A stretch of 25,823 bases of DNA, taken from positions 1 to 25,823 of IMG/VR virus record IMGVR_UViG_3300028571_000100; one strand, written 5' to 3'. The DNA comes from a virus. This document shows positions 2,426 to 25,294 of this stretch, one piece after another. Position 1 is the first letter of the stretch, and the number at the start of each line of letters is the position of its first letter. The notes under the pieces are model-generated. The model saw only the letters and a program-made list of their open reading frames with translations, made no database searches and was not told the origin of the DNA. The position numbers were made by a program, and so were the translations under genes.

Positions 2426-3463
2426 TCATAAACCACCATGCACCGAAGACGCTGAAAACATCTGTTTGTTAACGGCCAACAGGTCGCCAAAGTCTAGGGC
2501 CGAACCACCTCCGGAAAATGTCAGGTAGTCAATTACGTTAATATCTCCTCCGGAACTACCGCCTGCAAACAAGGCGCGTGTTGAACTGGAGACCCCATTC
2601 AAATCAGTTCGCGCCACGGTCAGCGTGCCAAAAGAGGAGGAGTTTCCTGTACTGGCAATTGTTATTGACTGCACGTCTGCGGTATTCACGCTATCGGGTA
2701 AAAGATACCCCCCTCCAAACACTCCGGTTGTGGAGTTTGAACACGCGCCGCCGCTTTTTCTAGAGGAGTTTAAGTCGCCAAAATTAACAGCATTGCCCGT
2801 TGAGGCGATGGTGACGTAGTTAATTGTGTTGAACGTAAGGCCGAGAGAACACGCAAATACCCCCCGAGTTGGAGACGCAACCCCACCAAGACCTTCCCAC
2901 ACTTGAGTTAAATCTCCGAAGTCAAGGGCGTTGCCTGTGGAAGCAATCGTGATGTACTCAATAATATTGACGCGACCCGTTTCCGATTGATCGCCACCAG
3001 CAATAATTCCTCTAGTGGAATTAGAACAGCCCCCAAGAATAATTTTTCTACCGCTGCAATCCCCGAAATCCAAGGAGTTTCCAGTGGTGGCAATCGTCAT
3101 GTACTGAATGGTGTTGCATAACCCTATGTTGTCGCTGCCAGCAGCCATAATACCTCGGGTAGCAGAAGAAATTGTGCCGTTTGCGCCCCTTCCTTGCGCT
3201 ACAGCTAAGTCACCCACGTCAACAGCATTCCCGGTAGTTGCAATAATTACGTATTGAATTACGTTTACCATGCTACCAGTATTGCCCCCGGAAAATATTC
3301 CAATAGGCGCAACATTCCCCGCAATCGGCCACAGTCCTTGCTGGAGCCAGTACGCCACCTGATCAAGCGTCCACACACCGGGAGCAGCGCCGTCTTGATA
3401 CGGCCCAGCAGGAGTTACGGGAACGGGTCTAATGATGCCTGCGTTCCATGAAGAGATTGCCAT
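2426..3463 (-). CDS. Six-repeat propeller-like tail/adhesin protein, copy 3
   Basis: A 345-residue protein with an N-terminal region (about 1-55, with a GVWTLDQVAYWLQQGLWP segment) followed by six copies of a degenerate repeat of about 45 residues. The repeat core is hydrophobic-x-Y-[IV]-T-I-A-[ST]-T-G-N-[AS]-x-D-F-G-D-L, then a variable loop, then CS-x-STRG-[IV]-[FI]-x-GG. Copies 5 and 6 are the most degenerate (one has FGTL, one has SGGG). The chain ends SSVHGGL, half of a CS-x-STRG unit, and begins its repeats with GIFSGG, the other half. That is the arrangement expected if N- and C-terminal halves close one beta-propeller blade. It is the last of three tandem paralogs. Function inferred: virion surface or tail adhesin. 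Confidence 0.85.
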   Translation of the reverse strand: MAISSWNAGIIRPVPVTPAGPYQDGAAPGVWTLDQVAYWLQQGLWPIAGNVAPIGIFSGGNTGSMVNVIQYVIIATTGNAVDVGDLAVAQGRGANGTISSATRGIMAAGSDNIGLCNTIQYMTIATTGNSLDFGDCSGRKIILGGCSNSTRGIIAGGDQSETGRVNIIEYITIASTGNALDFGDLTQVWEGLGGVASPTRGVFACSLGLTFNTINYVTIASTGNAVNFGDLNSSRKSGGACSNSTTGVFGGGYLLPDSVNTADVQSITIASTGNSSSFGTLTVARTDLNGVSSSTRALFAGGSSGGDINVIDYLTFSGGGSALDFGDLLAVNKQMFSASSVHGGL

Positions 3464-3465
3464 TT

Positions 3466-4377
3466 TTATAAACCTCCGTTAGCGTTGGAACATCCAGAAG
3501 GACTACTATTGGCATTTGCCAATAAATCACCAAAATCAGTTGCATTGCCTGTTGTGGCAATAGTAACGTAGTTAATTATGTTTGTATTATTGTTAATAGT
3601 AAGAACGGCTCTAGTGGTATTAGACGTAGCACTTCCATAAGATGATTGATTTGTTAAATCTCCAAAATCTGTGGCGTTGCCAGTTGAAGCAATCGTAATG
3701 TATTGAATTACATTAGTAGCTGATCCACTACTAATTATGCCCCTTGTTGAAGAACCACACCCAGCCAAACCATAGTCCTGCGATAATAAATCGCCAAAGT
3801 CAGTGGCGTTACCCGTAGTAGCAATGGTAATGTAGTCAATAATATTTGTAGTAGCAGCGCCAGTACCACCAGCAAAAATTCCTCTTGTTGAAGAAGAACA
3901 TGAGGCAAGCGTAGACGCGGCTCTTGTCATGTCACCAAAATCAGTGGTGTTTCCAATAGAGGCATACGTAATGTATTGAATTACGTTACTACCAACCCCT
4001 TCCCCGCCACCTGCAAAAATGCCCCTAGTAGACGAACCGCACCCTGCTGGCCCTTCTGCGTTACCTAATAGATCACCAAAATCTGCCGCGTTACCAACAG
4101 AAGCAATAGTGACGTAATCCACAACACTACTTCCAGACCCGCCACCAAACACACCTCTTGTTGCTGAAGCGCAGGCGGCGGTATAACTTCTAGAAACTGT
4201 TAAATCGCCAAAATCTGTTGAGTTTCCAGTAGAAGTAATGGTAATGTATTGAATAACATTTGTACCACCACCACCAAACAAACCAATATCACCAGTTAAA
4301 GGCGGTAAAGGCCAATTACCAGCACCCTTGGCTTGATACTGCGCAGTGAGCGTCCAGACACCACTATACGACGGCAT
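3466..4377 (-). CDS. Six-repeat propeller-like tail/adhesin protein, copy 2
   Basis: A 303-residue protein, the shortest and most regular of the three paralogs. After a short head with GVWTLTAQYQAKGAGNWPLPP, which resembles the GVWTLDQVAYWLQQGLWP segment of its downstream neighbour, come six repeats of the [VI]-I-x-Y-[IV]-T-I-A-x-x-G-N-x-T-D-F-G-D-[LM] type, each followed by CxSSTRG-[IV]-x-GG. It ends CSNANGGL. The start ATG at 4377 is preceded by AGGAGG with five to six bases spacing. The next gene starts two bases after its stop. The Asn/Thr/Gly-rich composition without Cys pairs or signal peptide fits a phage adhesin. Function is inferred from repeats and position only. Confidence 0.85.
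   Translation of the reverse strand: MPSYSGVWTLTAQYQAKGAGNWPLPPLTGDIGLFGGGGTNVIQYITITSTGNSTDFGDLTVSRSYTAACASATRGVFGGGSGSSVVDYVTIASVGNAADFGDLLGNAEGPAGCGSSTRGIFAGGGEGVGSNVIQYITYASIGNTTDFGDMTRAASTLASCSSSTRGIFAGGTGAATTNIIDYITIATTGNATDFGDLLSQDYGLAGCGSSTRGIISSGSATNVIQYITIASTGNATDFGDLTNQSSYGSATSNTTRAVLTINNNTNIINYVTIATTGNATDFGDLLANANSSPSGCSNANGGL
3473..3477 (-). promoter_or_regulatory. Shine-Dalgarno embedded in the conserved GGL C-terminus
   Basis: The last codons of the 303-residue gene read GGA GGT TTA TAA. The GGAGG in them is also the ribosome binding site for the next paralog, whose ATG is at 3463. One stretch thus encodes the conserved C-terminus and starts the neighbour. Confidence 0.6.
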
Positions 4378-4408
4378 AGACGCCTCCTGTGAATTTGTTG
4401 TTAGGCAT
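4364..4408 (-). other. Possible 14-codon leader minigene between two repeat genes
   Basis: The stop of the 397-residue gene overlaps an ATG (TGATG at 4406-4410), with GGAGG six bases before that ATG. The resulting frame, MPNNKFTGGVYAVV then TAG, runs over the AGGAGG and the start of the next gene. It could be a translational leader that carries ribosomes to the next start, or simply a relic of an earlier gene start. No coding evidence beyond the signals. Confidence 0.25.
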
Positions 4409-5601
4409 CAGAGACCTCCGTGGGCGTTAGAGCAGGCGGCAAGGGCGAAATTTGCAAATAACAAATCGCCAAAATCCACAGCGTTACCAAGTGACGCAAT
4501 TGTCACGTAAGAAATTACATTGACTTGCGTACTGGTTTGTTGCCCACCACCAAAGGTCGCTCGTGTTGTATTTGCGCATGCAGCTAACTGTTGATAACTA
4601 CCTGCAAAAGTCAAATCGCCAAAATCTGCGGCGTTACCAGTAGTCGCAATTGTTATGTAATTAATTGCATTATTGTTACTGCCAGCTATTAGCCCTCGGG
4701 TGCTATTTGAACATGCGGCGGCTTTGTCGTAACCATAAGGTGGTTCAGGTAGATCGCCAAAATCTATTGCGTTTCCAGTTGTGGCAATAGTAATGTATTG
4801 AATTACATTCCTGTCTGCGCTAAAAGTTCTGTCACCCGAAAACACAACCCCCCTTGTAGTAGACGCGCAAGAACTGCAAAAAGATGTACCAAATAAAAGA
4901 TCGCCAAAATCTGTTGCGTTTCCTAATGTGGCAATAGTAAGGTATTGGATTACATTAAAGAATCCAGAAGCCTCCCCACCTGCAAAAACGCCCCTAGTGC
5001 TGCTTGAAAGTGCAGTTGGAGCAGTATTTGCAGCAAGCAAATCTCCAAAGTCTTGAGCATTTCCAAGAGTCGCTATGGTAATGTAGTCAATTGAATTTAC
5101 ACCGCCACCGCCAGTCAGCCCTCTTGTTGCGGAGGCACAAGCAGCAATTCGGTCTAATGCGGCCACTAAGTCGCCAAAATCTGTGGCGTTTCCAGTCGTT
5201 GTTATATTAAAGTATTGAATTACATTTACATCGTTACTTCCGTTATTTCCACCAGAATAAATGGCTCGATTACTTGTATCTTGTGGCGTCACACTCCCAC
5301 TCGCCGCGCTATACGGCGACGGGCCATACGAGTTCAGCGCCCACACAGCAAACGTGTAAGCTGTGCCGTTGGTCAGGCCAGACACAGTAACAGGGGACGA
5401 GGCAGCCGTTGCGGTAACGTCACCGGGAGTTGAAATAGCGCCATACCCGGTAATAGCCGAGCCACCAACGTTAGCAGGCGGCGTGAACGCAACAGACGCA
5501 GAAGCATCACCACCCGTAGCCGTCCCAATGGTCGGTGCATTAGGGTTATTCAGCGGATCATAAAATGCTGAGATAAACCCAGAAGGAGGACGTAGTGGCA
5601 T
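4408..5601 (-). CDS. Fn3 domain plus six-repeat propeller-like tail/adhesin protein, copy 1
   Basis: A 397-residue protein. Residues about 20-108 form a fibronectin type III domain: PNAPTIGTATGGDAS, then AITGY, then VSGLTNGTAYTFAVWALNSYG, the usual strand pattern of Fn3. Six repeats of the I-x-Y-[IFL]-T-I-A-T-x-GNAxDFGDL type follow, each with an STRG-[VL]-x-GG partner segment, and the chain ends CSNAHGGL. It is the first and largest of three tandem paralogs. AAAGGGGGG precedes the ATG. Fn3 domains are common in phage tail and capsid surface proteins, where they are thought to mediate weak carbohydrate or surface binding. Combined with the repeats this points to an adhesin (inference). Confidence 0.88.
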   Translation of the reverse strand: MPLRPPSGFISAFYDPLNNPNAPTIGTATGGDASASVAFTPPANVGGSAITGYGAISTPGDVTATAASSPVTVSGLTNGTAYTFAVWALNSYGPSPYSAASGSVTPQDTSNRAIYSGGNNGSNDVNVIQYFNITTTGNATDFGDLVAALDRIAACASATRGLTGGGGVNSIDYITIATLGNAQDFGDLLAANTAPTALSSSTRGVFAGGEASGFFNVIQYLTIATLGNATDFGDLLFGTSFCSSCASTTRGVVFSGDRTFSADRNVIQYITIATTGNAIDFGDLPEPPYGYDKAAACSNSTRGLIAGSNNNAINYITIATTGNAADFGDLTFAGSYQQLAACANTTRATFGGGQQTSTQVNVISYVTIASLGNAVDFGDLLFANFALAACSNAHGGL

Positions 5602-9210: not shown

Positions 9211-10281
9211 TTACCTAGTATATACAGAAATATTTGGTGCCAGATACAGGGGCGAGCGATCGCGCTCTTCTTGCTCAACCATGTTCAGGTACTTCTCAGC
9301 CTGACCTTCGAGGTATTGGATGCGCGTAAGATCGACCCCGGGCAACTCTAGCGCCATCCTATGCGACAACATCATCAGCGTCGCCTCGTACCACCGCGTT
9401 GGGATGTACAGCTCGTTTGTCAATGAACCTACGTCCATGATCTGTTTGCTGTACCACACCGTGATCTGCACAAACGGGTCACTAGGGACAGGCCACAAGT
9501 ACAGCGAGGGCAAAGGAATTGTGCGATCAAACCAAAATTGGAATGGTTGATTCGATGTGAAGTTCTTGTTTGGCAGGTTCGTGTAGTCGTCGCGGTTTAG
9601 GCGAGACATGGTGATCTCAGTGGAGTTGTTTCCAACGTAGAACTCACGCAAAGCCAAAGTCGTACCACCAGAGGCGCGTACGCGGTAGTACTGGACGGCT
9701 TGACCGGGGTTTATATCTGTCCAGATCCACTGGTTATCAGTCACAGCTACGGCGCCAAGGTTCTGTAGCGTCGTCCAAGTGCTGTTATCTGTCGAGTATT
9801 CGAGGGTCAGCGTCCATGTGGCGCTTCCACCACCTGCTATGTAGGGGAGGATGCCGATGGAGCCAGCATAAATCTCTTGGTTTGTTCCAAAGTTTGCTGA
9901 AATGTTCCCGTTTGCGCTTGTCTGTAAGCAGAACGTGTCTACGTCGTTGTCACCCACGTTTCCAACCGTACCACCCGCGGAGGATGTGTAGCTCGCACTA
10001 GGGCGGTTCATGGTGCGATAGAGCACGTTTAGAGCGTCGTTTGCACCTGCGGGTAGGGTGTATATGTAATTGTTCGGAGAAACGCCCAAAACCTGCTTAT
10101 CGATGGCAAAGTACTGTATGCCAATGTTGATCAGGTTCTGTAAAAGAAAGCTCAAAGACTGACGAGCGGACACAAGTTGCTCAGAGGTCAACTCTTCGGC
10201 TAATTTGCCTGCACGTCTCGCACCATGATCGATCAAGGTTTGTACGTTAACTGTCTGACCGTATGTATCTGAGTACGCCAT
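9211..10281 (-). CDS. Head-tail connector (P22 gp4-like) with carbohydrate-binding-like insert
   Basis: The first 65 residues (TLIDHGARRAGKLAEE, then SARQSLSFLLQNLINIG) match the helical start of P22 gp4-type tail accessory factors that bind the portal and extend the head-tail channel. The last part (about 219-356: SRLNRDDYTNLPNK, PSLYLWPVP, WYEATLMMLSHRMALE) has the same family's strand-plus-helix core. Between them, at about 95-218, lies a beta-rich segment (NISANFG, WTLTLEYSTDNSTWTTL, QYYRVRAS) that resembles a discoidin/F5-8C-type jelly roll. The protein is about twice the length of P22 gp4 (166 residues), and the insert explains most of this. AGAGGAA precedes the ATG. Confidence 0.85.
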   Translation of the reverse strand: MAYSDTYGQTVNVQTLIDHGARRAGKLAEELTSEQLVSARQSLSFLLQNLINIGIQYFAIDKQVLGVSPNNYIYTLPAGANDALNVLYRTMNRPSASYTSSAGGTVGNVGDNDVDTFCLQTSANGNISANFGTNQEIYAGSIGILPYIAGGGSATWTLTLEYSTDNSTWTTLQNLGAVAVTDNQWIWTDINPGQAVQYYRVRASGGTTLALREFYVGNNSTEITMSRLNRDDYTNLPNKNFTSNQPFQFWFDRTIPLPSLYLWPVPSDPFVQITVWYSKQIMDVGSLTNELYIPTRWYEATLMMLSHRMALELPGVDLTRIQYLEGQAEKYLNMVEQEERDRSPLYLAPNISVYTR

Positions 10282-11302: not shown

Positions 11303-12367
11303 TCAGCACTTTACTGATCCACCACGTTTCTTTGCAGGGGTTACTGTCACGGACTTCTCAGTCTTGGTGACAGAGCCAGAAGGCTTTTCCTTGCTAGTAA
11401 ACAGGCTCTTCGCACCCTCATACAGCTTGCTTGGAATGTTACGGATGGCTTTTGCCATGTCCATCTCACTCTCAGATGGGCCAATCGATTTGTCGTAAGC
11501 GCCTTTGGATAGGTCAGTTACTTTCCCGCCATCTTGATACTTCAGGTTGCTCTGGGCTTTCGCTTGCTTCATCGCTGTTGCGTTCTCAGCCTTGAAGGCA
11601 GATTGCTCTTTCTTCTGTGCTGGTGTCACACTGCCACCCTTTTTAAAGGTGCCAGATTGACGATCATTGCTGACAGGAACAGATGGTTTCTTTGCTGGGT
11701 ATGCTACGGCGTGACCGCTGTTATTAACAGCTCCCCCCGTAGCGTAGTGCTTTTTTGTTGCACCGCCTTTTTTGTAACCACCGCCATTACCTAACTTCAC
11801 CTCGCCTGTGGGGGCGCTGTTGTTGTCAGGATGAGCTGTGTCCATCTTCGTGTTGCGATATGCGCCGCCTTGACCTTCGGTGTTGATGATGCCGCTCTTA
11901 GCAATAGCACCACCCTTTTTGTAGCCGCCTTGACCGTTTACAACACCACCTGTGGCGTAGTTACCGGGCTTGGTTGACTTCAAAACGCCACCAGTAGCGC
12001 AAGCCATGCCACCAGACTTCAGACCTTTATGTCCCTTGCTGGCAGGCTTGGACTCGTGAGACTTCAGCTCTTTTTCAAGACCCTTCATCTTCGACATCTC
12101 AGCCTTGTGCGTAGCCTTAGACTCGCCACCTTCTTTCATGCCGCCTTGCATACCCTTCATGCCCATCATAGCCGCACGACGTGCCGCCATAGTAGGACGC
12201 TTAGGACGAGCAACGGGCATCATGCCACCGCGAGCAGGCATTGAAGATGCCATAGGAGCATCCATCATGCCGCCCATAGCCTTCTTCACAGATCCGCCTT
12301 TTTTGAGCTTTAACTCAACTGTAGGCTCTGTGGTCATCATTTTGACCATTGGTTTAAATTGACCCAT
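11303..12367 (-). CDS. Lys/Gly-rich low-complexity basic protein with KKGG repeats
   Basis: A 354-residue, extremely basic protein with little hydrophobic core, so largely disordered. KKGG[SA][VIT] occurs at about residues 22, 150, 199 and 242, with DGGKV at 279 and KRGGSV at 347, four residues from the end. YATGG[VA]V occurs at about 137 and 208, and a Met/Ala/Gly-rich stretch covers 30-80. The N-terminus MGQFKPMVKMMTTEPTVELK and similar repeats are familiar from freshwater phage contigs, but I know no function. A DNA- or RNA-condensing internal virion protein is plausible because of the charge, its number of Lys-Gly motifs and its place beside the capsid genes. AAGGAG precedes the ATG and a terminator follows the stop. 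Confidence 0.85.
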   Translation of the reverse strand: MGQFKPMVKMMTTEPTVELKLKKGGSVKKAMGGMMDAPMASSMPARGGMMPVARPKRPTMAARRAAMMGMKGMQGGMKEGGESKATHKAEMSKMKGLEKELKSHESKPASKGHKGLKSGGMACATGGVLKSTKPGNYATGGVVNGQGGYKKGGAIAKSGIINTEGQGGAYRNTKMDTAHPDNNSAPTGEVKLGNGGGYKKGGATKKHYATGGAVNNSGHAVAYPAKKPSVPVSNDRQSGTFKKGGSVTPAQKKEQSAFKAENATAMKQAKAQSNLKYQDGGKVTDLSKGAYDKSIGPSESEMDMAKAIRNIPSKLYEGAKSLFTSKEKPSGSVTKTEKSVTVTPAKKRGGSVKC

Positions 12368-15197: not shown

Positions 15198-16145
15198 TTA
15201 GTAAGAGTTGTTTCGAGCTTCTTGCGCATATCGCTTAATCATCTTGGATCGCTTATCGGGATCATCCCAAAAGCCAGCATCCTTCATTGCGCGCACTTGT
15301 TCTGGTTTCAGTACAAATGTGTTCCTGTTGGTGCTTCCGTTGACGCTTTCGCGACCAGAACTTGTTACAACACTCCTTGGTCTCTTAGTAGACGAACGTA
15401 CGTCCGTGCTGTCATTGTACTTGTGAGGCAAGTACTTATGCAAGCGATTATCGAGCTCATTCCAATAATCAGGTGAGGTTGGATCCCAACCCTCTGAAAC
15501 CAGAGTCTCGTCAATCTGCTTTGCAATCTTGGAATCGGTGTCCCGAGCGTTCGGGTCGTACCAATCATTCTTCTCCATCCAGTTCGCCGCCAAGCGTTGC
15601 AGGCGTGGATCTGGGACGTTTCCTTGGGACTGGCGAGGCTCCACAGCCGCCTTCTTAAAGTTGGTCAAAGCCTCCATCTGACGACGCGATTCGTACATCA
15701 TCTCTTGGGCTTCAGCCATGGCGTGACCGTCAGAAGCGCTTGCCGCCTCAGAGATCTTCATCTTGGCGTACTGCAAGCGAAGTTCTTGGTCTTCAATAGC
15801 CTTGTCGATACGAGCTAGGTCAGCAGAGTGGGTTTTGCGCTCCACAACGGACAAACGCTCCATCAATTCTTGGTTTTTGCGTTCCAAGAGCTGGAGTTTC
15901 ATGTCCTTCTCTACGCCTGTCTTCTTAGCTAAATCCCGCTTGGCACGACGTTTTTCACGACGGGCACGTTGGTACTCTGTCTCGTCTTCAGGGGCTATAT
16001 CGTCGTCTGTAGAGCCGCCTGACGCCATTTCACGGTCGTCCTCAATATCATCAGGGGATTCAATGCTGTCAGGAAGGTCGATAACGGCTGAACCGTCCGC
16101 CTCTTCGGTGACTTTGATCTTATCAAGTTCGTTTTCTGTGGTCAT
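15198..16145 (-). CDS. Scaffolding protein
   Basis: A 315-residue protein with the composition of phage scaffolds: an acidic N-terminus (about 1-57, EEADGS, ESPDDIEDD, PEDETE), a long charged helical region (about 58-165, with EKDMKLQLLERKNQELMERL likely coiled coil), and a basic C-terminal helix pair (about 272-315, KPEQVRAMKDAGFWDDPDKR then SKMIKRYAQEAR) such as scaffolds use to bind the coat. The EQVRAMKDAG-x-WDDP-x-[KR] ending is familiar from phage scaffold genes. It overlaps the co-chaperonin stop (ATGA) and has no separate ribosome site, so its translation is probably coupled. It is followed by the head-region genes and the capsid gene, which fits scaffold function. Confidence 0.88.
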   Translation of the reverse strand: MTTENELDKIKVTEEADGSAVIDLPDSIESPDDIEDDREMASGGSTDDDIAPEDETEYQRARREKRRAKRDLAKKTGVEKDMKLQLLERKNQELMERLSVVERKTHSADLARIDKAIEDQELRLQYAKMKISEAASASDGHAMAEAQEMMYESRRQMEALTNFKKAAVEPRQSQGNVPDPRLQRLAANWMEKNDWYDPNARDTDSKIAKQIDETLVSEGWDPTSPDYWNELDNRLHKYLPHKYNDSTDVRSSTKRPRSVVTSSGRESVNGSTNRNTFVLKPEQVRAMKDAGFWDDPDKRSKMIKRYAQEARNNSY

Positions 16146-16576
16146 AAGAATGCTTTCATTGCTAAGGGATCACCAATTACTTTGGCGATGATTTCGTGGT
16201 CGTTTAGGATCATGAACAGGGCTGGATCTTCGTGATCGTCCTGTCCTTCAACCTTAACTTCCCACCGATCTCCGCCCCATTTAGGGACTCGGATGTAATC
16301 GCCTACTTCGCACCATGACCCCTCGGGCCAGCCTTGCATGGTGTCGCGGTTTTTGAATGCGAGAGGGCCAACTTCGATGACTTTTGCCACCATGTTGTTC
16401 CACTTCTCGCTCTCTTTGGTCTCTTCCACCAAAATGATCCCTGCGCTTGTCGTTTTCTGCTTTGTGCGACGTAATTGCACCAAAATTCGACCACCTAATG
16501 GCTTAGCACCCGGGCTAACAGCGGGGAATGCCCACTTAACTTCAGCGTTTTCCAACACTTCGGGGTTATCGCTCAT
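16142..16576 (-). CDS. Phage GroES-like co-chaperonin
   Basis: A 144-residue protein with the GroES fold signature: PLGGRILVQL at residues 26-35 (GroES P-L-x-D-R-[IV]-x-V), the mobile-loop segment TTSAGIILVE about 42-51, where GIIL stands for the GroEL-binding GIVL, then VAKVIEVGP (63-71), EVGDYIRVPKWGG (90-102), and ILNDHEIIAKV (123-133, GroES [MI]-x-E-x-[DE]-I-x-A-x-[VI]). It is longer than GroES (about 97) through an N-terminal leader and an insert around 73-90. Such proteins replace host GroES to let GroEL fold large phage capsid proteins, as T4 gp31 does. The scaffold follows with an overlap, then the capsid, so the head fold is its likely client. Confidence 0.88.
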   Translation of the reverse strand: MSDNPEVLENAEVKWAFPAVSPGAKPLGGRILVQLRRTKQKTTSAGIILVEETKESEKWNNMVAKVIEVGPLAFKNRDTMQGWPEGSWCEVGDYIRVPKWGGDRWEVKVEGQDDHEDPALFMILNDHEIIAKVIGDPLAMKAFL

Positions 16577-16913: not shown

Positions 16914-19463
16914 TCAGCCTCCTAAGTAGGTTTGTGCTTCACGTTGAAGCTCGGTTGCAGTTTTTACCTGCTCTTGTTGCAGTTTTGCCGCATCTCGCGT
17001 CAATCTTGCAGACTCTATACGCTCTTGGGTGAGATTTTTCTCTGTTTGCATCGCCACTTCGAGCTGTTGATCTGACTCGAACTGCTGTTTGCTCTGTGTG
17101 AGCTTGGCAACGTCGAGTTGTTGTTGGTTTTGAAGCTTCTGAACAGCCAATTGGTTGTCCGCTTGGTCTTTTGCAGTCAAGCGCTGGGTCTCTGCCATGC
17201 TTGTCTGGAGCAAAACCTGTGCTTCTGGTGTCATTGGAGGGGTGTTGCCTTGCTTGAGCTTCTGCATTGTCTGCATCATGCCCTGCAATTCAGGCACAAC
17301 CTGCGCAAATACCTTCTGTGTGTCCAAGGTAACGTGCTGTGAGGCGATAGCCATGAGCTTGTCTGCCTCTGGCGTGACCTTTGGATCGTCGTAATCCGTG
17401 GCTTGGCGACCCAAAGTCTTCACAACGTAGCCATTCATGCGGTTTAAGTACCACATAGAGATGTGTTGCTTCAGGTGCTCGACCATCTGGGGCAGAATAA
17501 TTGGCTGAACCATGGGGTTTGAGCCAAAGATTGGGTCTTTGTAGAAGTCCATGTGGCTCTGAATGTGGGACAGGTGGTCTTGCTCCATGTAAGCAAAAGC
17601 CGCTTGCCCTAACATCATGGCGACATTCTCATTGGCAGAGTCGCGCTTCTCAGGAGAAGGTACGTCTTTCATGATCTCGTTGATCCCGGGCACCTTGATC
17701 TGCTTCAGGAACCGCTCCACCACGACCTTGCGGTTAAACAGGTCTGGGTTCTCCTTCATGATCTGCATCACCGCTTGGCTCTGCGCCATACGCTGAGTCT
17801 CAGAGAAGATGTGCGGATCAGAAACAGGGATCACGTCCGTGTTAGAAGCGAAGTCTTCTTTGCGAATATCAAGGTCTTGAACCACTTCACCCTTGCGTTG
17901 CTCTTCCAAGTACCAACGATTCAGGCGACCAAGGATCTTGAGGACGCGACCTTGGCTGTCGTGCAGGCGTGAGTGGATGGCAGAAAACACCGCGGCGCCC
18001 TGCTCGATCAAAGCTTGGGTGGTTCCAACAGGGGTGTTGGAGTTCACGTCAGCGATCTTTTCTTCTGCGGTGGTCACTACCCCCTTAGCCGCACCGTCTA
18101 ACCAGCCTAGAAGCTGGAATAGCACCGCGGAAGGTGGGTTAAACGGCATAGGCATGGCGATCTTGCGGATGTCGTCAACACCGGGCGCCCCTTCGATCTC
18201 ACAAACCTGCGTCACATCCACCTGTTGGGACTGACCCGAGATCTTCGCTCCCTTGAGCTTGAGCATAGTTGCCGCATTGTTGATATGGGCAGAGTCAAGC
18301 AAAGCGCGCAGAGAGCCTGTAAGAGCCGCTGACAGCCCACCAATGAGCTGTGGCAGACCGATAGCGTAGGCACCACGCCATGGGATGAACTTGAACTCGA
18401 CCAACCAATCAAGCTTGGTCACTGTCTCGTCGCCCTCTTCCCAGTTACGGTACAGACCGACGCACTCGTTCTCGTGCTCGTCAACCATCAGGATGTAGGG
18501 GGCTGATTCACCGTTGGTCAGAGGGTCGTCTTCTAGCTCGAGCCATGTGTAGATGTGATAGACCTTTCGCAGACCGTCTTCGTTGTCATCCCACTTGCGA
18601 CCTTCAATCTTGTTGTTGGCTTTCTCAGAGTGGGTTTCATCTGGCTCAGCGCTTACGCGAACCAAGTCGATGTCACGGTACAGACCTGAGCGAATGCGGT
18701 TCTTGAACTCCCACTCGGTAATCGTCTGCATCTCAGTGACACGTTGAGCGGTGTAGAAGTTTGCGGCGGCATAGGGCAACAGAATGTTGTCGATGGGCAT
18801 GAACTCAGCGCAGGGGCGCTTCTTTTTCTCGTCGTACCACAGCTTCATGTACTGTGAGCCACCCAAGGGAAGCTGAGTCAGCATCTGTTCCTGCTCGTCG
18901 CGGAACTCTTCGATCTGCTCAGTCAACTGCCAGTTCATGTAGTCGCGCTTGCGCTCAGCCTTCTGGATCTTGGCTTCATCCACGTCGCCTAAGATCTTGG
19001 TGCGGGTAGGGCCATCTGGTGGGAACATCTCTTTGATAGCACGTGAGGCAAAGTCCACGCAGGCTTCAGCCATGACAGGGTGGACAACCTTGCTGGCGCC
19101 CATGAACGTGGCACCGCCCGGCGCATCATTGCCCATGCCCGTACGCTTAAGACCCTCTTCGTACTTCTTGTCGCGCTCTTCACGGGACTTCTTGTCGTTC
19201 TCGACTAAGTCCATGTAGCGCAGGGCAATCTTGTTCAAGTCGTATGGGTCAATCTCTTCAGCCAAGTTGGCGTAGAAGTCTTCGTCCTCCATGGGCCCCT
19301 TGCTCTCCATGCGAACGATGGCAGAGCCGTCAGGCAACTCCTCGATCTCTTGGTCGTCATCAGATATTTCAAACTCCATGCCTTCGTCGGCATTGGCTTG
19401 TTGATCTCTGAGACCGTCAATAAAACGACCCGCGTTAGGATCTTGTGGGAATTGTGTCGCCAT
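16914..19463 (-). CDS. Portal protein (P22-like, long C-terminal barrel)
   Basis: An 849-residue portal. An acidic N-terminal arm (about 1-60) leads to a conserved portal core: NKIALRYMDLVENDKKSREE, GASKVVHPVMAEACVDFASR, then PLGGSQYMKLWYD and IDNILLPYAAAN. The stem/wing region includes GAYAIGLPQLIGGLSAALTG, AHINNAATMLKLKGAK and TPVGTTQALIEQG. The C-terminus, from about 725, is a long Gln/Lys-rich helical tail (LAVQKLQNQQQLDVAKL, VKTATELQREAQ). P22-type portals carry such a tail, forming a barrel that runs into the capsid; the P22 portal is 725 residues, so this one is longer. AAGGA precedes the ATG, six bases after the upstream gene ends. The terminase lies upstream, as usual. Confidence 0.93.
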   Translation of the reverse strand: MATQFPQDPNAGRFIDGLRDQQANADEGMEFEISDDDQEIEELPDGSAIVRMESKGPMEDEDFYANLAEEIDPYDLNKIALRYMDLVENDKKSREERDKKYEEGLKRTGMGNDAPGGATFMGASKVVHPVMAEACVDFASRAIKEMFPPDGPTRTKILGDVDEAKIQKAERKRDYMNWQLTEQIEEFRDEQEQMLTQLPLGGSQYMKLWYDEKKKRPCAEFMPIDNILLPYAAANFYTAQRVTEMQTITEWEFKNRIRSGLYRDIDLVRVSAEPDETHSEKANNKIEGRKWDDNEDGLRKVYHIYTWLELEDDPLTNGESAPYILMVDEHENECVGLYRNWEEGDETVTKLDWLVEFKFIPWRGAYAIGLPQLIGGLSAALTGSLRALLDSAHINNAATMLKLKGAKISGQSQQVDVTQVCEIEGAPGVDDIRKIAMPMPFNPPSAVLFQLLGWLDGAAKGVVTTAEEKIADVNSNTPVGTTQALIEQGAAVFSAIHSRLHDSQGRVLKILGRLNRWYLEEQRKGEVVQDLDIRKEDFASNTDVIPVSDPHIFSETQRMAQSQAVMQIMKENPDLFNRKVVVERFLKQIKVPGINEIMKDVPSPEKRDSANENVAMMLGQAAFAYMEQDHLSHIQSHMDFYKDPIFGSNPMVQPIILPQMVEHLKQHISMWYLNRMNGYVVKTLGRQATDYDDPKVTPEADKLMAIASQHVTLDTQKVFAQVVPELQGMMQTMQKLKQGNTPPMTPEAQVLLQTSMAETQRLTAKDQADNQLAVQKLQNQQQLDVAKLTQSKQQFESDQQLEVAMQTEKNLTQERIESARLTRDAAKLQQEQVKTATELQREAQTYLGG

Positions 19464-19466
19464 ATC

Positions 19467-21425
19467 TTATTTCCTTTTGAGCTTCTTGTTGCTCAGTTCC
19501 ATGAACATAGTATCGCGGTTCTTAGTCATTCTAACCCTACCGCCTTTTGCTTCTTTAACTTCAGGTTTAGATGCTTCTGCACGAGCTTTCATGCGCGCAA
19601 TCTCTTGCTCAATAGACTCGTTGGTCAATGAATTGGGGGTTACGTCACGCAGGTAGCTGTTCTCATCCCTAGCAATCAAAGCTTTGACAGCCTCAGCTCG
19701 AGGAGTCATTTCTTCTCGCATCTTCTTAAGCTTAGCCAGAGCCGCCAGCTTGGCAACAGATCCACCACCTGCTAAGCCTGCTTCTTCTTCAGGCTCAAGC
19801 ATCTGAGAAGCCGCACCAGCGCCAGCAGTTGGGATGCCAACCTGTTGGTACAGGGGTAAGCCCTTCTGTTGGATCTGCTGGCGCATCTCTGGCGTGATGG
19901 GGAAAAGATGGGCGCTATAAGTTTCAGGCGGGGTCGTAGTCCAGCCGCCTTCAGGGTTTGGCACGTGCATACCCTTGTTGATTGGGATTGGCATCTGACC
20001 AACCTGAGCGCCATAGGGCTTGCCAAATGTATTTAGGTAATTTGGCAAAATCTGATCGTAGAAGCCCTTCATGCCTTCGCCGCCGACTTGAAGGTCAACA
20101 CCTCGCAAAGCAAGATTGCCAGAGGCATCAGGAGAAGCTTCAAGAATCTTCTGCGCCCCTTCTTTACCAATGTAGTCAGATAAGGTTTCCTTGGTCACGC
20201 CTTGTTGGGCAACCACCATATTACCTTTTGGGTCACGACCAGACAGGTAACCAGTTGCAGGATCAAAAACAACTTCGCTTAATTGCTTGCTTAAGTCATA
20301 GCGCTTAGCCTGCTCGGCGCCGGGCGTTATGGCGATGCTGTCATACCCGTTGTCAGCGGCGTAGTTCAGCAGGCGCTTCATCGCTAGCTCATGCCAGTTT
20401 TTCTTGAAGGGGGCGTCGGGTACGCCGTAATTGATGACATCCCTCATTTTGTCCCTTTGCTCTTGCAACTGCATGAGCTTAGGAGTGATGTCAATTGCTT
20501 CATTCATTAAACTTGTAAATTCAGCACCGTGAGTTGGCATGGCTTCAGCTTGTTTTAAAAGCTGTGTACGTCTTTCGCCTAAGTCGTTGAATTGCTTATC
20601 AAGCGCATTGCTTTGCTCTATGTAGTCATCGGGCTTGTATCCCTTTTTGCGACCTTCTTGATGCCAATCAGACTGAATCTCTTCGACGTGCAGGATTTTC
20701 TCTCCGTTGGGGCCTTTACGGTCTTGAACGCGCATATGGGCTAGAACGTTGGGATCTTCTTGCCAATGACTGGATTGGTATTGATTGCGCATTCGATCAA
20801 CGGTCTGAGAATCCACTGCCCGTGCATCACCACTCGACCCAGCAAATCTTGACGCCTCATCGGGATCATTGAATATCCGCTCAACTCCTTGACCGTTTTT
20901 TGCCCAAAACCGTTGCTTGTCATCTGGCAACTTTAGCAAAATCTCACGGTAGTTCTCACCATCTGGTGTTCTGTATTTACCGTACTTTGTGCCGTTGTCG
21001 GCATCCATGCGCCTGTAGACCTCATCCGAGATCTGGCGATGCCGAGCACCACTAAAGCCAATAGTGCTATACGGCACTCCAAACATCTCTTGGGACACCA
21101 TCTCTCGAAGGTCGTCCTCGTCTATGGCTGTTGACTCGTCGTACACCTTCTCTTTAAGTTTAGGTGGTGGGTTCTCTTTGAGGACTTCTTGAGCCTCTTC
21201 CTTGGTCATCTTGCCCTTGGCTTTGAATGCCTGCTCGAGCTTACGGTCAGCGATCTCCGCCTTCTTGACGCCCGGCTGTTTCAGCACCTCCGTCAAGAAC
21301 TCTATGCCCGTACCCTTGGGGCGCTTGAGGTTAGCCAGCGCCTCATCCACGGCAGAGTAAAAGGGCGCCGTCTTCCTGACTTTCTCACCTGCCTTAGCGG
21401 CTCTCAGTGCTCCAATGATAGTCAT
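19467..21425 (-). CDS. Phage polyvalent-type protein, 652 residues
   Basis: Residues 35-88 (KGTGIEFLTEVLKQPGVK, then KMTKEEAQEVLKEN) match an N-terminal module I recall from large phage proteins. Residues about 145-475 form a conserved domain: DGENYREILLKLP, DPNVLAHMRVQDR, VEEIQSDWHQEGRKKGY, PFKKNWHELAMKRLL, KRYDLSKQ, VGGEGMKGFYDQILPN. This domain occurs in large polyvalent proteins that phages and plasmids deliver with their DNA; its activity is unknown to me. The protein is soluble, with a Lys/Glu-rich C-terminal third. The last 26 residues carry the motif GGRVRMTKNRDTMFMELSNK, also in the next gene upstream. It overlaps that gene by four bases (ATGA) and precedes the portal, so it may be a virion or internal protein. 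Confidence 0.8.
   Translation of the reverse strand: MTIIGALRAAKAGEKVRKTAPFYSAVDEALANLKRPKGTGIEFLTEVLKQPGVKKAEIADRKLEQAFKAKGKMTKEEAQEVLKENPPPKLKEKVYDESTAIDEDDLREMVSQEMFGVPYSTIGFSGARHRQISDEVYRRMDADNGTKYGKYRTPDGENYREILLKLPDDKQRFWAKNGQGVERIFNDPDEASRFAGSSGDARAVDSQTVDRMRNQYQSSHWQEDPNVLAHMRVQDRKGPNGEKILHVEEIQSDWHQEGRKKGYKPDDYIEQSNALDKQFNDLGERRTQLLKQAEAMPTHGAEFTSLMNEAIDITPKLMQLQEQRDKMRDVINYGVPDAPFKKNWHELAMKRLLNYAADNGYDSIAITPGAEQAKRYDLSKQLSEVVFDPATGYLSGRDPKGNMVVAQQGVTKETLSDYIGKEGAQKILEASPDASGNLALRGVDLQVGGEGMKGFYDQILPNYLNTFGKPYGAQVGQMPIPINKGMHVPNPEGGWTTTPPETYSAHLFPITPEMRQQIQQKGLPLYQQVGIPTAGAGAASQMLEPEEEAGLAGGGSVAKLAALAKLKKMREEMTPRAEAVKALIARDENSYLRDVTPNSLTNESIEQEIARMKARAEASKPEVKEAKGGRVRMTKNRDTMFMELSNKKLKRK
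19476..19547 (-). repeat. GG-V...DTMxMEL module, C-terminal copy
   Basis: Encodes residues 627-650 of the 652-residue protein. It aligns without gaps with 22877-22948; 13 of 24 residues are identical, and the DNA is clearly related. Confidence 0.7.
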
Positions 21426-24400
21426 AGCGGTCTCTCTTCAAGGATTAAGTCGTCACCGCTGATAGCACCACCAGCGGCTTTGTGCATACCAGTGTCAGCT
21501 ACTTGGCGTGCCGCATCATCTACTGACAAGCCCTTGTTGACAAGGTCTACGATCTTATTCAGGTTGTTCATGCTGTCTTTGATGCCGTACTTCTTGGCGG
21601 CGTTCACAAACTCATCACCGTTAATGTAGGCGGCTGGCTTCTTGAGGTATCCGCCTTCGGCTTTCTTGACGGCTCCGCCCTTCTTCTTGCCTGTCAGCTC
21701 CTTCATGCGGCGCTGGTACTCACCAATGGCTTCGATCAGCTCGTTGTCAATCTGTTGCTTAGGCACAATCATGTTCATGCGCCCAAACTCGCTTGACTTC
21801 TTGTCAGACGGAACATCCTTCATCCAGTTCAGCGTATCTCTGTAGATCAACTGGTAGGGAGATGGATACTTTGAACGTCCAGAGGCGCCAGCTTTAGGGA
21901 AGCCTGTATCGTAGGTCTGGCTGTCAGCTTCAAAGTTCCTTAGAGGCGCATTGACATCCAAAGGTACAACAGCGTAGCCACTTGCGCCAGCTTCCAAGTC
22001 GCGTAGCTCAGGCAAGGACGTAGCGGCTAGTACATCTTGACCACTATTCAAACCATAGCGCGTGGTGAACTTGGGGCCTCCAAAGATCGCGCCAATATGC
22101 CTACGGAAGTTAGGATCCATCTGAGCATGGATCTGCAAGTTCAGAGGATCATCAAACCCCTCAAACTCAGGGTGCTTACCAAATCCAACATCCTTAGTGC
22201 GAATCTCTTCAATCATCTCCTGATACAGCTTAGGATCACGCAACTTCAGCTCTTCTGGACGCAAGTGTCCAAGGATTGAATTGAAGTGGTGCATGGCGTA
22301 CCAGTTCGCGTCTGGTGTCATCTTGTGATAGTGAAGGTAGGGGTCTGCTTCGTACTCCTCAGCCGCCTTCTTAGCCCTCTTCATGTAGGTCTTTGCCATC
22401 TGATCTGTAGCCGCCCAAGCTGTGGGGTTGTACAGCTCCCACTCAGGGCCTGCCTGCATGTGGACAGGAGCGGACAGGGGTTGGTTATCGATGGAGATCA
22501 ACATGCGGTTCCCCGGCGTCACATCCCCCTGCGCGCCGATCAGCAGAGCACCCTTCTTTTTCGCGTAGTCAAACTCTTCAGGCGTCACTGGCTCCTTGAT
22601 GTTCTCGTACTCAATCGGCAGAGTCTTCTCACGCTCAAACTGCTTCCTTGACTTACCTACAACGCTTTCGCTTGGGTTTGGCTTACTTGGCGTTGGTGCG
22701 GCACGAACGAACTCACCCATGACTTGGGGAGCCATGCGCTCAGCCATAGCGCGGATCTCGGGCACGGTAGGGCCACGCGACACGGGGAAGCGAATAGGCA
22801 CATCAATCTTTGGGGGCTTAGCCGCTTTCAGACCACCCTTGATTAAGCCAGCGCCAGCGTAGGCAGGGACGCCGTTCTTCATCTTCTGGTTGCCTAGCTC
22901 CATCATCATGGTGTCAGGGTTGTTGGAGATGTTGACCTTGCCGCCACGCTTCATGCCTGCGGCTGGTGGTTTAGCGCCTAGTCCAAGCTCATCAAAAGTA
23001 TCTTGACCAAGTTGCTTCAGTAACCAGTCAGCGTGTTCAGCAGGCGTCATGATCTGTCCGCCTTCACGAATCAATCCAGTATTCTTAAAGTCGCCAATGT
23101 CAGACCAATTGCCACCCTTTACAAAGTCCTGCACAAATGGCAGGTACGCATCTTTGGGTTTGGCATTCTGCTTGCCTTTAATTTGCTTGATCTTTGGCGG
23201 TAATGCTTCACGAGCGGCAAGATATTCTGGGCCTTCGTATTCGTCGTGATTTTTGTCTTCTTTTCTTCGTTGGGCAATTCTGTTCTGAATTTCTTCGGGT
23301 TGTTTGTTGAACCAAGTGTTGTAATCCAAATGCTGGTTTGGCACAACTTCAATCGTTACATGCGGCTCACCCTTGGCATCACGCAAACTATAGATTTTTG
23401 ACCTACCAGATATAACGTCAGGACAGTAGCCGCCAACGCAGTGACCCATGGTGTCGCCTTCGTACTTAAGGGCATCAGCCAGTTGGCTTTCAGGATATTT
23501 CTCAATGTAATCCTCTGGTGTCAAGCCTTTTTGTCTGGCTTCTTCAGTCAACCTAGCAATCATTTGCTTGCGTTCATCAAGTGGCAAAGAGTTGTAATCT
23601 GGCGTTTTTAGCTCAATCCACTTGTACCCCTCTGGGTATTCCTTGTAGGTAGGAAAGCCTTCTTGCTGTTGAAGAGCAGTCTCCTGCATCTTTTTAGCCA
23701 TCTCTTGGTCGTACTCGTAGGTGCGGCGTACTGCCTGCTCCATGCTGACCTTGTTCAGTTGCTCAGGGCGTATACGACCAGCGGCTAAGTCTTCACGTAA
23801 TACGTCAACAACGTGGTCAAAGCCCAAGTTGTACGTTGACCCTGAGTACAGCCTTGTCTCTGGGTCAAGCTTGGCAACAAACGGGTTGAGGTCGCCAGCT
23901 CGCTTCTCAAAGCCTGACTCTCTACCAAGCAAGGTATTGATGTTGCCCTGCAACTCTTTGTACTTTGTGTCACCTAAAATCTCTGCCTTTTGGAAGTTTG
24001 GCATCTTGTCAAATACTTCACGGTCTTTAATGTCAAGACCGCCAAGGCGTTGCAAATAGGCGATAAAGTCTTCATCGATTTGTTTCTTGTGGGCATCCAG
24101 CTCGGCTCTAGCCTTCTCAATCTTGGCGCCAATGTTTGCCTGATCTTGAATAGCGCCAGCCTTGGTGACCCTGATTGCGTCATCAGATAGGTTTTCCCAC
24201 CTCTTAGCAAGCTCAGACTTGCCCATACCCTCAGCAGGGTAGCCCTCTGCTTTACGTGTGTCTTCCAAGTATCCTGCGCGATCTAGGTCATCACGTAACG
24301 GCATGTGTGTGATGCCCTCTTCAGCCAGCTTTCGTACTGGGTCGTCGCGAGTAGCCATTTCTTTCTTGACGTAGTTCTTTAGGTTACTGTCAATCCAGTT

Positions 24401-25294
24401 ATCAACCGCGGCTTCACCTTTAGTCTGTTCAAGCTGATATAGGACGCGATCAATCTGGTCTTGGTTTAGTGTCGGGTCTTTCAACAACTCTTCATGTTTG
24501 GGTATCCGTTGCGCAGGAGTTTCCCCAGCAATTGTTTGTGTTTTCAGCCTGCGCAGGTCGTTCTCAGGGATGCCCAACTGTTCACCGCCACCGAGCCAAT
24601 TGCCACCTCTAGGCTTGACCACGTTGGACTGCGTGTTAGCACCCATAGCCATGACCATCTCACGAGGTAAGCCGCCACGTTCAAAGGCGCCCTTGACAAC
24701 TGGCTCCATGGCGCTCTCAATCTTCCTACCGACCTGCTCTGCGCCTCTACCTGCCGCTCTTGCGGCTTGAGCCGTGGCTGGGCCTGTCAAGTACTGCAAA
24801 GCCACAGCTTCGGGTAGCACTGGTGGGATCTTGTATTCGGTCTCGAGCTTCTCGAGAAAGTCACCAATGTCCTGTGCGTACTCATACGCCAGTGGTTGCT
24901 CAGGCTTGTAGATGCGGTCTTGGATGAACTTGTCAGCCGCCTCGTCACCCTTGAAGATGCGGGTAGGCAGGGAGTTAACAGCTTGCGTCAAGGCGGAACC
25001 CATGAACCTGCCAGCCTGTATGCCACCAGCAAGCTTCTCGAGTGGGGATCTGTCAGCCTGTACTTGACGCATGAGGTCAGCATCACGTTGGGTGATGCGT
25101 CTGTTCAGCTCTCGGTTCTCCTTGGTCGGGACGCTCAGGTCAACCGTTCCAAGCTTGGGGATGAACTCGCTGTACTGCGGGAGCTCCATCGCTCTAGGGT
25201 CTTCAATGAAGGCTGGCGGCTGAGCTGACCTAAAGTTCTTAGCGATGGTTCGACCGACTCGTGGGTAGAACGCTGGTTTGTTTTCGTCAGCCAT
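21422..25294 (-). CDS. Large polyvalent-type protein with PcfJ-like HC motif, 1290 residues
   Basis: A large multi-part protein. Residues 1-230 are helical with no membrane segment I can call. Residues 545-700 contain a PcfJ-like domain: a helical lead-in (ERKQMIARLTEEARQKGLTP) and the motif MGHCVGGYC at 616-624, then SLRDAKGEPHVTIEVVPN, typical of a family named from a conjugative plasmid protein. Residues 782-806 carry the motif shared with the 652-residue neighbour. The C-terminal part (about 890-1200) is a separate globular domain (PAWAATDQM-like region, IFGGPKFTTRYGLNSGQDV) that I cannot name. A KKGGAV module at 1204 precedes the helical C-terminus. Start at ATG 25294 after the terminase. 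Perhaps a fusion of two genes; function unknown, defence or virion roles possible. Confidence 0.78.
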   Translation of the reverse strand: MADENKPAFYPRVGRTIAKNFRSAQPPAFIEDPRAMELPQYSEFIPKLGTVDLSVPTKENRELNRRITQRDADLMRQVQADRSPLEKLAGGIQAGRFMGSALTQAVNSLPTRIFKGDEAADKFIQDRIYKPEQPLAYEYAQDIGDFLEKLETEYKIPPVLPEAVALQYLTGPATAQAARAAGRGAEQVGRKIESAMEPVVKGAFERGGLPREMVMAMGANTQSNVVKPRGGNWLGGGEQLGIPENDLRRLKTQTIAGETPAQRIPKHEELLKDPTLNQDQIDRVLYQLEQTKGEAAVDNWIDSNLKNYVKKEMATRDDPVRKLAEEGITHMPLRDDLDRAGYLEDTRKAEGYPAEGMGKSELAKRWENLSDDAIRVTKAGAIQDQANIGAKIEKARAELDAHKKQIDEDFIAYLQRLGGLDIKDREVFDKMPNFQKAEILGDTKYKELQGNINTLLGRESGFEKRAGDLNPFVAKLDPETRLYSGSTYNLGFDHVVDVLREDLAAGRIRPEQLNKVSMEQAVRRTYEYDQEMAKKMQETALQQQEGFPTYKEYPEGYKWIELKTPDYNSLPLDERKQMIARLTEEARQKGLTPEDYIEKYPESQLADALKYEGDTMGHCVGGYCPDVISGRSKIYSLRDAKGEPHVTIEVVPNQHLDYNTWFNKQPEEIQNRIAQRRKEDKNHDEYEGPEYLAAREALPPKIKQIKGKQNAKPKDAYLPFVQDFVKGGNWSDIGDFKNTGLIREGGQIMTPAEHADWLLKQLGQDTFDELGLGAKPPAAGMKRGGKVNISNNPDTMMMELGNQKMKNGVPAYAGAGLIKGGLKAAKPPKIDVPIRFPVSRGPTVPEIRAMAERMAPQVMGEFVRAAPTPSKPNPSESVVGKSRKQFEREKTLPIEYENIKEPVTPEEFDYAKKKGALLIGAQGDVTPGNRMLISIDNQPLSAPVHMQAGPEWELYNPTAWAATDQMAKTYMKRAKKAAEEYEADPYLHYHKMTPDANWYAMHHFNSILGHLRPEELKLRDPKLYQEMIEEIRTKDVGFGKHPEFEGFDDPLNLQIHAQMDPNFRRHIGAIFGGPKFTTRYGLNSGQDVLAATSLPELRDLEAGASGYAVVPLDVNAPLRNFEADSQTYDTGFPKAGASGRSKYPSPYQLIYRDTLNWMKDVPSDKKSSEFGRMNMIVPKQQIDNELIEAIGEYQRRMKELTGKKKGGAVKKAEGGYLKKPAAYINGDEFVNAAKKYGIKDSMNNLNKIVDLVNKGLSVDDAARQVADTGMHKAAGGAISGDDLILEERPL
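22877..22948 (-). repeat. GG-V...DTMxMEL module, internal copy
   Basis: Encodes residues 783-806 of the 1290-residue protein (RGGKVNISNNPDTMMMELGN and on). It aligns without gaps with the C-terminus of the downstream 652-residue protein. Confidence 0.7.

Follow-up and report, generated by a model that had tools for sequence, protein, structure and literature searches.

The virus record IMGVR_UViG_3300028571_000100 of IMG/VR was analysed over a stretch of 25,823 bases, called the window here. Its main genes lie on the minus strand and encode, in this order, a terminase fragment, a protein of 1290 amino acids (aa) with a PcfJ-like domain, a 652-aa protein, a portal protein, a GroES-like protein, a capsid protein and others. 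The 1290-aa and the 652-aa protein share a peptide module of about 25 residues. It ends the smaller protein and lies inside the larger one. The features concerned are:

21422–25294, minus strand: gene of the 1290-aa polyvalent-type protein
23315–23557, minus strand: PcfJ-like domain (PF14284, Pfam match), residues 580-660 of the 1290-aa protein, on the N side of the module
22877–22948, minus strand: internal copy of the module, residues 783-806 of the 1290-aa protein
22805–22999, minus strand: predicted disordered linker holding the internal copy, residues 766-830 of the 1290-aa protein (model residues 309-373; predicted local distance difference test, pLDDT, under 50)
21692–22765, minus strand: folded domain on the C side of the module, residues 844-1201 of the 1290-aa protein (block D1)
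19467–21425, minus strand: gene of the 652-aa polyvalent-type protein (GNAT-like fold in the model over residues about 86-523, support weak to moderate)
19476–19547, minus strand: terminal copy of the module, residues 627-650 of the 652-aa protein, followed only by R-K-stop
19470–19499, minus strand: final ten codons of the 652 gene, with synonymous sites almost invariant among relatives, ending in a AAAAGGAAA run upstream of the portal start
16914–19463, minus strand: portal gene (phrog_1216), starting 3 bases past the stop of the 652 gene

The module is real. Without gaps, the two copies agree in 13 of 24 residues and in 47 of 72 nucleotides, which bears out an earlier sequence-only reading of the window in both its protein match and its alignable DNA. 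Thirteen is also the best ungapped 24-residue identity between the two proteins, and 100 shuffles of the 1290-aa protein yielded a maximum of 11, reached once. When the window was searched with the 652-aa protein, the internal copy came up again (42% identity, query residues 619-651, E 3.4e-4). From the shuffles and this search, chance is not the explanation of the match. The consensus is roughly [KR]GG-x-V-x-[IMF]-[ST]-x-N-[PR]-D-[TA]-M-x-[ML]-E-[LV].

Relatives were sought in IMG/VR, yielding 351 confirmed stretches for the 652-aa and 121 for the 1290-aa protein. The best 80 each were kept, and the loci of relatives are given as L-numbers (L021, L048 etc.). A hidden Markov model (HMM), seeded with 49 gapless copies of the module and then iterated, detected 144 copies at E<0.01 in 142 open reading frames (ORFs) in this first set of 151 sequences (the window plus 150 loci). 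The module was then itself used as the query (236 stretches fitting the pattern, 85 confirmed, 74 loci kept), and the enlarged set of 214 sequences held 170 copies in 161 ORFs, with a best E of about 2e-16. The refined HMM lost variants found by the first one, and the counts are therefore those of the first HMM. Unique sequences comprise 37 terminal and 91 internal copies; two copies were not anchorable, four lay at contig ends, and the 91 include one truncated piece of the window's own copy. All 128 are C-terminal or internal, save one in a fragment cut at its 5′ end. In first-set ORFs with complete C-ends, 127 copies were placed: 48 end no more than 12 residues before the C-terminus, seven lie 13-300 residues away and 72 more than 300, so that the position is two-peaked. 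An iterated profile search had been proposed with the sequence-only reading to reveal a positional preference, and one was found: copies fall at C-ends or at joints. A tblastn search of a phage collection with a 33-aa query yielded no hit at E up to 10, although a query this short makes for a weak test.

At the joints, the module has many neighbours. Flanks of up to about 200 residues per side were clustered by BLAST thresholds, replacing an initial clustering over-merged by single linkage; a few clusters may be related (D10 and D15 are alike). Downstream of the PcfJ-side block U1 stand 12 different blocks, of which five occur a single time. On its upstream side, block D4 has U1, U2, U6 or U7, and block D2 has U1, U2 or U4. 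An ART-PolyVal domain (PF18760) follows the module in L211 and L213 (D4) and precedes it in L141, and an ASCH domain (block D8) follows it in L043. Scanned representatives of D2, D3, D5, D6 and D7 received no Pfam name at E<0.01, and block D1 of the window had no Pfam match at E up to 0.1. Judged by these arrangements, the module is portable, its internal copies joining different domains.

Comparison of related proteins shows that domains have been gained or lost right beside it. The proteins of L048 (707 aa) and L043 (913 aa) match in 680 of their 707 aligned residues; what sets them apart is a stretch of 206 residues with the ASCH domain. The difference consists of gaps of 157 and 49 with two residues between them and starts at alignment position 684, and the insertion point is the end of the module (659-685). 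Three 1290-type proteins (L021, L025, L048) stop after a tail of 22 residues past the module, of the same kind as the C-terminus of the 1290-aa protein. A protein of 2238 aa in L212 carries PcfJ (684-730), the module (876-900), a 652-type domain (904-1470, by local alignment), a second module (1478-1497) and a further block. In 652-type proteins with extra sequence on the N side, the module stays at the very end (L023, 1082 aa; L031, 1130 aa), and in those of L020, L025 and L043 it is followed by 714-719 aa. The fusion or boundary read from the window alone is thus supported by the proteins that end near the module, by the ASCH stretch and by the L212 fusion, and on this comparison the larger protein is modular at the module position.

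Conservation was judged from homologue alignments made without regard to the module; the D and M counts of 91/91 and 37/37 arise by construction, as copies were anchored on D-x-M, and were not used. In the 652 family (34 sequences) the V, N, D, M, E and L columns of the module are at least 90% conserved, and in the 1290 family (28 sequences) the G, G, N, D and M columns. When the PcfJ-side proteins are compared without gaps, identity lies mostly at 0.3-1.0 over positions -14 to +12 and drops to about 0.1-0.2 in the linkers on either side. With the comparison restricted to the same downstream block, flanking-linker identity is still 0.1-0.3. High identity between low flanks makes the module an island of conservation between variable linkers.

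At the DNA level, the codons for V, G, T and L vary in terminal and internal copies, and the internal N and D codons are skewed (GAC in 86 of 91). In terminal copies (n = 32), identical residues share their codon at 0.38-0.64 for most core positions, with exceptions at -2 and -1 (0.88 and 0.97), and at 0.63-1.00 over the last ten codons from +5 to the end, reaching 1.00 at +5, +7, +10, +12 and +13. Upstream linker codons range from 0.35 to 1.00, and the contrast with the last ten codons is good, not perfect. Portal codons 3, 4, 5 and 7 are shared at 0.91-1.00, codon 6 at 0.39. The sequence AAAAGGAAA precedes the stop in 28 of 37 terminal copies, and the ATG usually follows 2-3 bases past it; internal copies are without the fixed codons. 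These patterns are read as a core selected as protein, with the last ten terminal codons selected also as DNA or RNA. The latter probably also form the region where translation of the portal gene is initiated, the run being ribosome-binding-like. The two copies share codons at 0.475 within genomes (50 pairs) versus 0.486 between genomes (5998 pairs). A recent duplication or gene conversion was rejected, as 1150 of 2000 permutations equalled or exceeded the observed value of the 50 within-genome pairs. By codon use, DNA copying between the 1290 and 652 genes is not supported, nor is the mobile or duplicated cassette of the sequence-only reading.

Genes bearing the module are called tagged in the following. 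Adjacent pairs of a 1290-type and a complete 652-type gene (n = 57) are tagged in both genes in 53 cases, 52 of them with exactly one copy each; L198 has two tags in the first gene of its pair. By HMM, four pairs are without a tag (L056, L066, L067, L280), and looser forms were seen by eye in the last three of these. The 52 of 57 pairs with one copy per gene speak for a single address on each polypeptide, not for a cut at every domain. Tagged single-gene loci (n = 23) hold two copies in 11 cases and one in 12, and 45 further single-gene loci are untagged. Exactly two copies per locus was tried as a rule and rejected, since it describes 49 of 64 two-gene loci (49 of the 54 tagged) and just 11 of the 23 tagged single-gene loci.

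Distinct C-terminal tags, listed by loose regular expressions, are followed by a portal gene in 65 of 70 cases, at -23 to +3 bases. The tagged proteins in this list range from 362 aa (5′ end cut) to 1847 aa. In three of the other five the data contain no downstream ORF, and the remaining two are the copies of L025 and L048, which lie near the C-terminus. Looser forms of the tag end more distant proteins (L215, L283, L306, L319). Among homologues of the two proteins, 25 distinct portal-adjacent C-ends scored as untagged. At least six of these show looser tags by eye that the expressions missed (L126, L216, L217, L277, L284, L285), and nine have an internal tag (L020, L053, L057, L064, L118, L195, L211, L212, L213). 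Giant homologues of more than 2000 aa from bacterial assemblies are mostly without the tag and without this portal adjoining. In L139 (2047 aa) and L148 (2451 aa) the portal is next, with no tag by HMM.

A further sample was fetched by portal alignment; eight of its 71 rows have no upstream ORF, which leaves 63 loci. The portal-upstream genes of 43 loci have ends other than the tag, many with a basic residue and GG. The tails GGLTLMR, GGLAAMSR and GGLTQLKAR recur in genes before the portal in L322-L401. With a slightly different selection, the last 45 residues contain [KR]GG in 38 of 61 portal-upstream proteins and in 18 of 206 other genes; for the tag pattern, the counts are 11 of 61 and none of 206. 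Overall, [KR]GG is found 2.4 times per 1000 residues in portal-upstream proteins versus 2.1 in other genes. The 1290-aa protein itself has another conserved end:

21425–21481, minus strand: second conserved C-terminal tail, residues 1272-1290 of the 1290-aa protein (KAAGGAISGDDLILEERPL)

This tail, AxGGxITxDDLIxEERPL, has 49 unique forms that end the gene before the 652-type gene. It also ends a 711-aa protein of L300 (not 1290-like at E 1e-8) and 5′-cut proteins of L231 and L214. An hhalign comparison with the module aligned just 8 columns at a probability of 4.6, which does not support kinship. A KGG-rich 354-aa protein is encoded near the capsid gene (11303-12367, minus strand), and several relatives have the end SVTKTEKSVTVTPAKKRGG..C in common.

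AlphaFold models were built with 34 sequences for the 652-aa protein and with 28 for part of the 1290-aa protein (mean pLDDT 73.9 and 75.4). The terminal copy contains a low-confidence predicted helix at 637-649 (block pLDDT about 60) after a disordered linker, with a pLDDT under 50 at residues 620-628. In the other model, the internal copy lies between the PcfJ part and a confident C-terminal domain. The new domain expected just after the module was thus found as the next folded domain, but it does not follow immediately: disorder is predicted for 766-830, and the modelled fold begins near 844. A search of the PDB with both models returned no match with E under 0.001. The 652-aa model aligns with GCN5 at a VIA-align Z of 9.5 (3.9 Å, 132 aligned), with the C-terminal part of ICL2 at up to 10.8 and with many GNAT chains at about 9, unrelated helical hairpins reaching similar Z; its best Foldseek E of 0.057 is not significant, and it has no Pfam match. 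On these models, the 652-aa protein may be a GNAT acetyltransferase; GNATs have been reported in polyvalent proteins (PMC5512222). The PcfJ part (residues 545-747, window 22-23 kb) also aligned best with GNAT chains, e.g. HAT1, at Z of 7.8 or less, which is in the tool's uninformative range.

Elsewhere in the window, a GroES-like co-chaperonin is encoded at 16142-16576 on the minus strand (PF00166, E 1.1e-7), and the record DSL-LC04 has an annotated GroES gene at a similar place. The gene at 9211-10281 (minus strand) encodes an SU10-type adaptor protein with a possible F5/F8 type C (discoidin-like) insert, both Pfam matches being below the curated cut-off. Three neighbouring proteins at 2426-5601 (minus strand) are made of repeated 'NVIQYITIASTGNATDFGDL'-like units. 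A 315-aa protein encoded at 15198-16145 resembles a scaffold protein in its position alone. An Rfam scan of the window gave no match. The PLxRFG C-terminal domain, presumably an NCBIfam family name, was not listed for the 652-aa or 1290-aa protein among NCBIfam matches at E up to 1, the presence of its model in the release being unchecked.

There is about an even chance that the module is a sorting or docking tag for virion cargo (polyvalent) proteins. The signal is inferred from the gene order, the polyvalent concept, an HTVC028P homologue and the precedents of T4, crAss001 and N4. That homologue, 23.6% identical to the 652-aa protein, has internal virion proteins annotated next to it. The tag-bearing proteins are the large multidomain (polyvalent) products of genes that lie between terminase and portal. 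A docking or loading signal would be formed by a flexible GG hinge and, after it, a short helix from the Asp; it would draw these proteins into the procapsid, with the portal vertex as the likeliest site. The recruited proteins would be ejected together with the DNA. Effector domains could be appended without losing the tag, which would account for its internal position in the 1290-aa protein. The sequence-only reading had offered a portable signal; its portability agrees with the position at C-termini or domain joints among varied neighbours and with the protein-level conservation; the signal reading is the most likely one, its function putative. A wider version, entertained at somewhat less than even chance, is a cargo-loading code of tailed phages. 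In it, a swappable C-terminal or internal peptide would let a group of environmental phages plug new effector domains (ART, ASCH, GNAT-like, PcfJ, unnamed) into virion-delivered proteins, the portal or scaffold would read the tag, and further KGG-type tails (GGxITxDDLIxEERPL) would be parallel addresses on neighbours.

Several points weigh against a docking tag. The module may be internal, so a free C-terminus is not needed. In the portal-selected sample, the gene before the portal is tagged in just 20 of 63 loci at E<1 (17 at E<0.05), which led to rejection of the idea that this portal family is always preceded by the tag. Eight of these 20 records had already been fetched via the two proteins, and three have no BLAST match to the 652-aa or 1290-aa protein (L370; L394 and L401, weak at E 0.7 and 0.6). 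The tag is thus not required for this portal family and is one of several tails. The expected place beside portal genes held for the 65 of 70 terminal tags and failed as a general rule for the portals. Portal adjacency partly reflects phylogeny and partly sampling, since similarity to the two proteins or the module was the basis on which most loci had been fetched. Four named records with related proteins (DSL-LC04, HTVC028P, MW202675 and Dfl-JY45) contain no copy, the HMM count being 0 for three of them.

Other explanations were weighed against the same data. The module could be the fossil of an old C-terminus, left after gene fusion or domain addition and now acting as a flexible spacer only. 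Fusion and domain gain or loss were seen directly at the module (L212, L043/L048), and the internal copy lies in predicted disorder. However, a mere spacer would not need an island of conservation with key columns at 90% or more in divergent homologues, and this explanation is considered unlikely. An element acting at the DNA level, either as portal translation start or as a recombination seam for swapping upstream genes, would account for the near-fixed last ten codons, the fixed portal codons 3, 4, 5 and 7 and the 28 of 37 copies that end in AAAAGGAAA. As an account of the whole module it is improbable, the least so favoured of all, since most core positions share codons at just 0.38-0.64, internal copies are without the fixed codons and sharing shows no within-genome excess. 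For the terminal copy, it probably holds in part.

A protease cut at or just after the module, e.g. following GG, would free single domains. Metallopeptidase processing has been proposed for other polyvalent proteins, and processing of DdrB from phage P1 has been reported (PMC5512222). The location of the module between domains would agree with this, as would a G at +14 in 75 of 91 internal copies. Yet the module is kept at free C-termini, and there is mostly one copy per polypeptide, not one per domain. Proteases of families S78, S14 and S49 had no match in seven related records (49-57 kb, completeness not known, five of them tag-bearing), a search that did not include the T4 gp21 family. The metallopeptidase PF18818 gave no match either, but control genomes had none as well, which makes this search uninformative. 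Cleavage at GG, as raised by the sequence-only reading, is not supported, and a processing site is judged slightly less likely than the fossil linker. The docking tag is the preferred reading.

Encapsulin cargo-loading peptides are short C-terminal peptides on disordered linkers in bacterial nanocompartments. By description, they resemble the module in the C-terminal peptide and the disordered linker and differ in belonging to bacterial nanocompartments. Phage-type polyvalent proteins unite several domains of disparate activity, and their genes stand near those of terminase and portal (Iyer et al., 2017, PMC5512222). The proteins described here likewise combine disparate domains in one polypeptide (PcfJ and a folded domain in the 1290-aa protein, PcfJ and ASCH in L043, PcfJ and ART-PolyVal in L141), lie among late genes next to terminase and portal (TerL fragment, 1290, 652, portal) and have relatives with the ART-PolyVal domain PF18760. 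The common unit of that study is a metallopeptidase; its main text does not contain the words 'linker' or 'PcfJ', and no shared peptide tag was noted in it (PMC5512222). The capsid targeting sequence (CTS) of T4 occupies the first 10 residues of internal proteins and is processed (PMC9026906). It is alike as a short transferable peptide on unrelated proteins; in contrast, the module is C-terminal or internal, never N-terminal in the window, spans about 25 residues and has shown no signs of cleavage so far. For N4, a C-terminal domain of vRNAP is needed for encapsidation, according to the title of an unpublished reference in PMC4496689. Likened by description, both concern the C-terminal part of a giant virion cargo protein, with a whole domain in N4 and a short repeated peptide here. 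In crAss001, the cargo protein gp45 is bound to the portal inside the capsid (PMC10172136), which is similar as portal-docked cargo and different in using a compact domain (residues 425-552), not a linear tag. No publication describing this tag was recognised in the open-licence PMC literature, to which the search was limited.

To our knowledge, it is largely unknown how uncultured phages choose the effector proteins borne in their particles. If the docking reading is true, a short tag would flag such proteins by sequence alone and mark sites of domain gain, and it could be put to the test on a reporter. It would also explain how polyvalent proteins grow by domain addition without losing their place in the particle.

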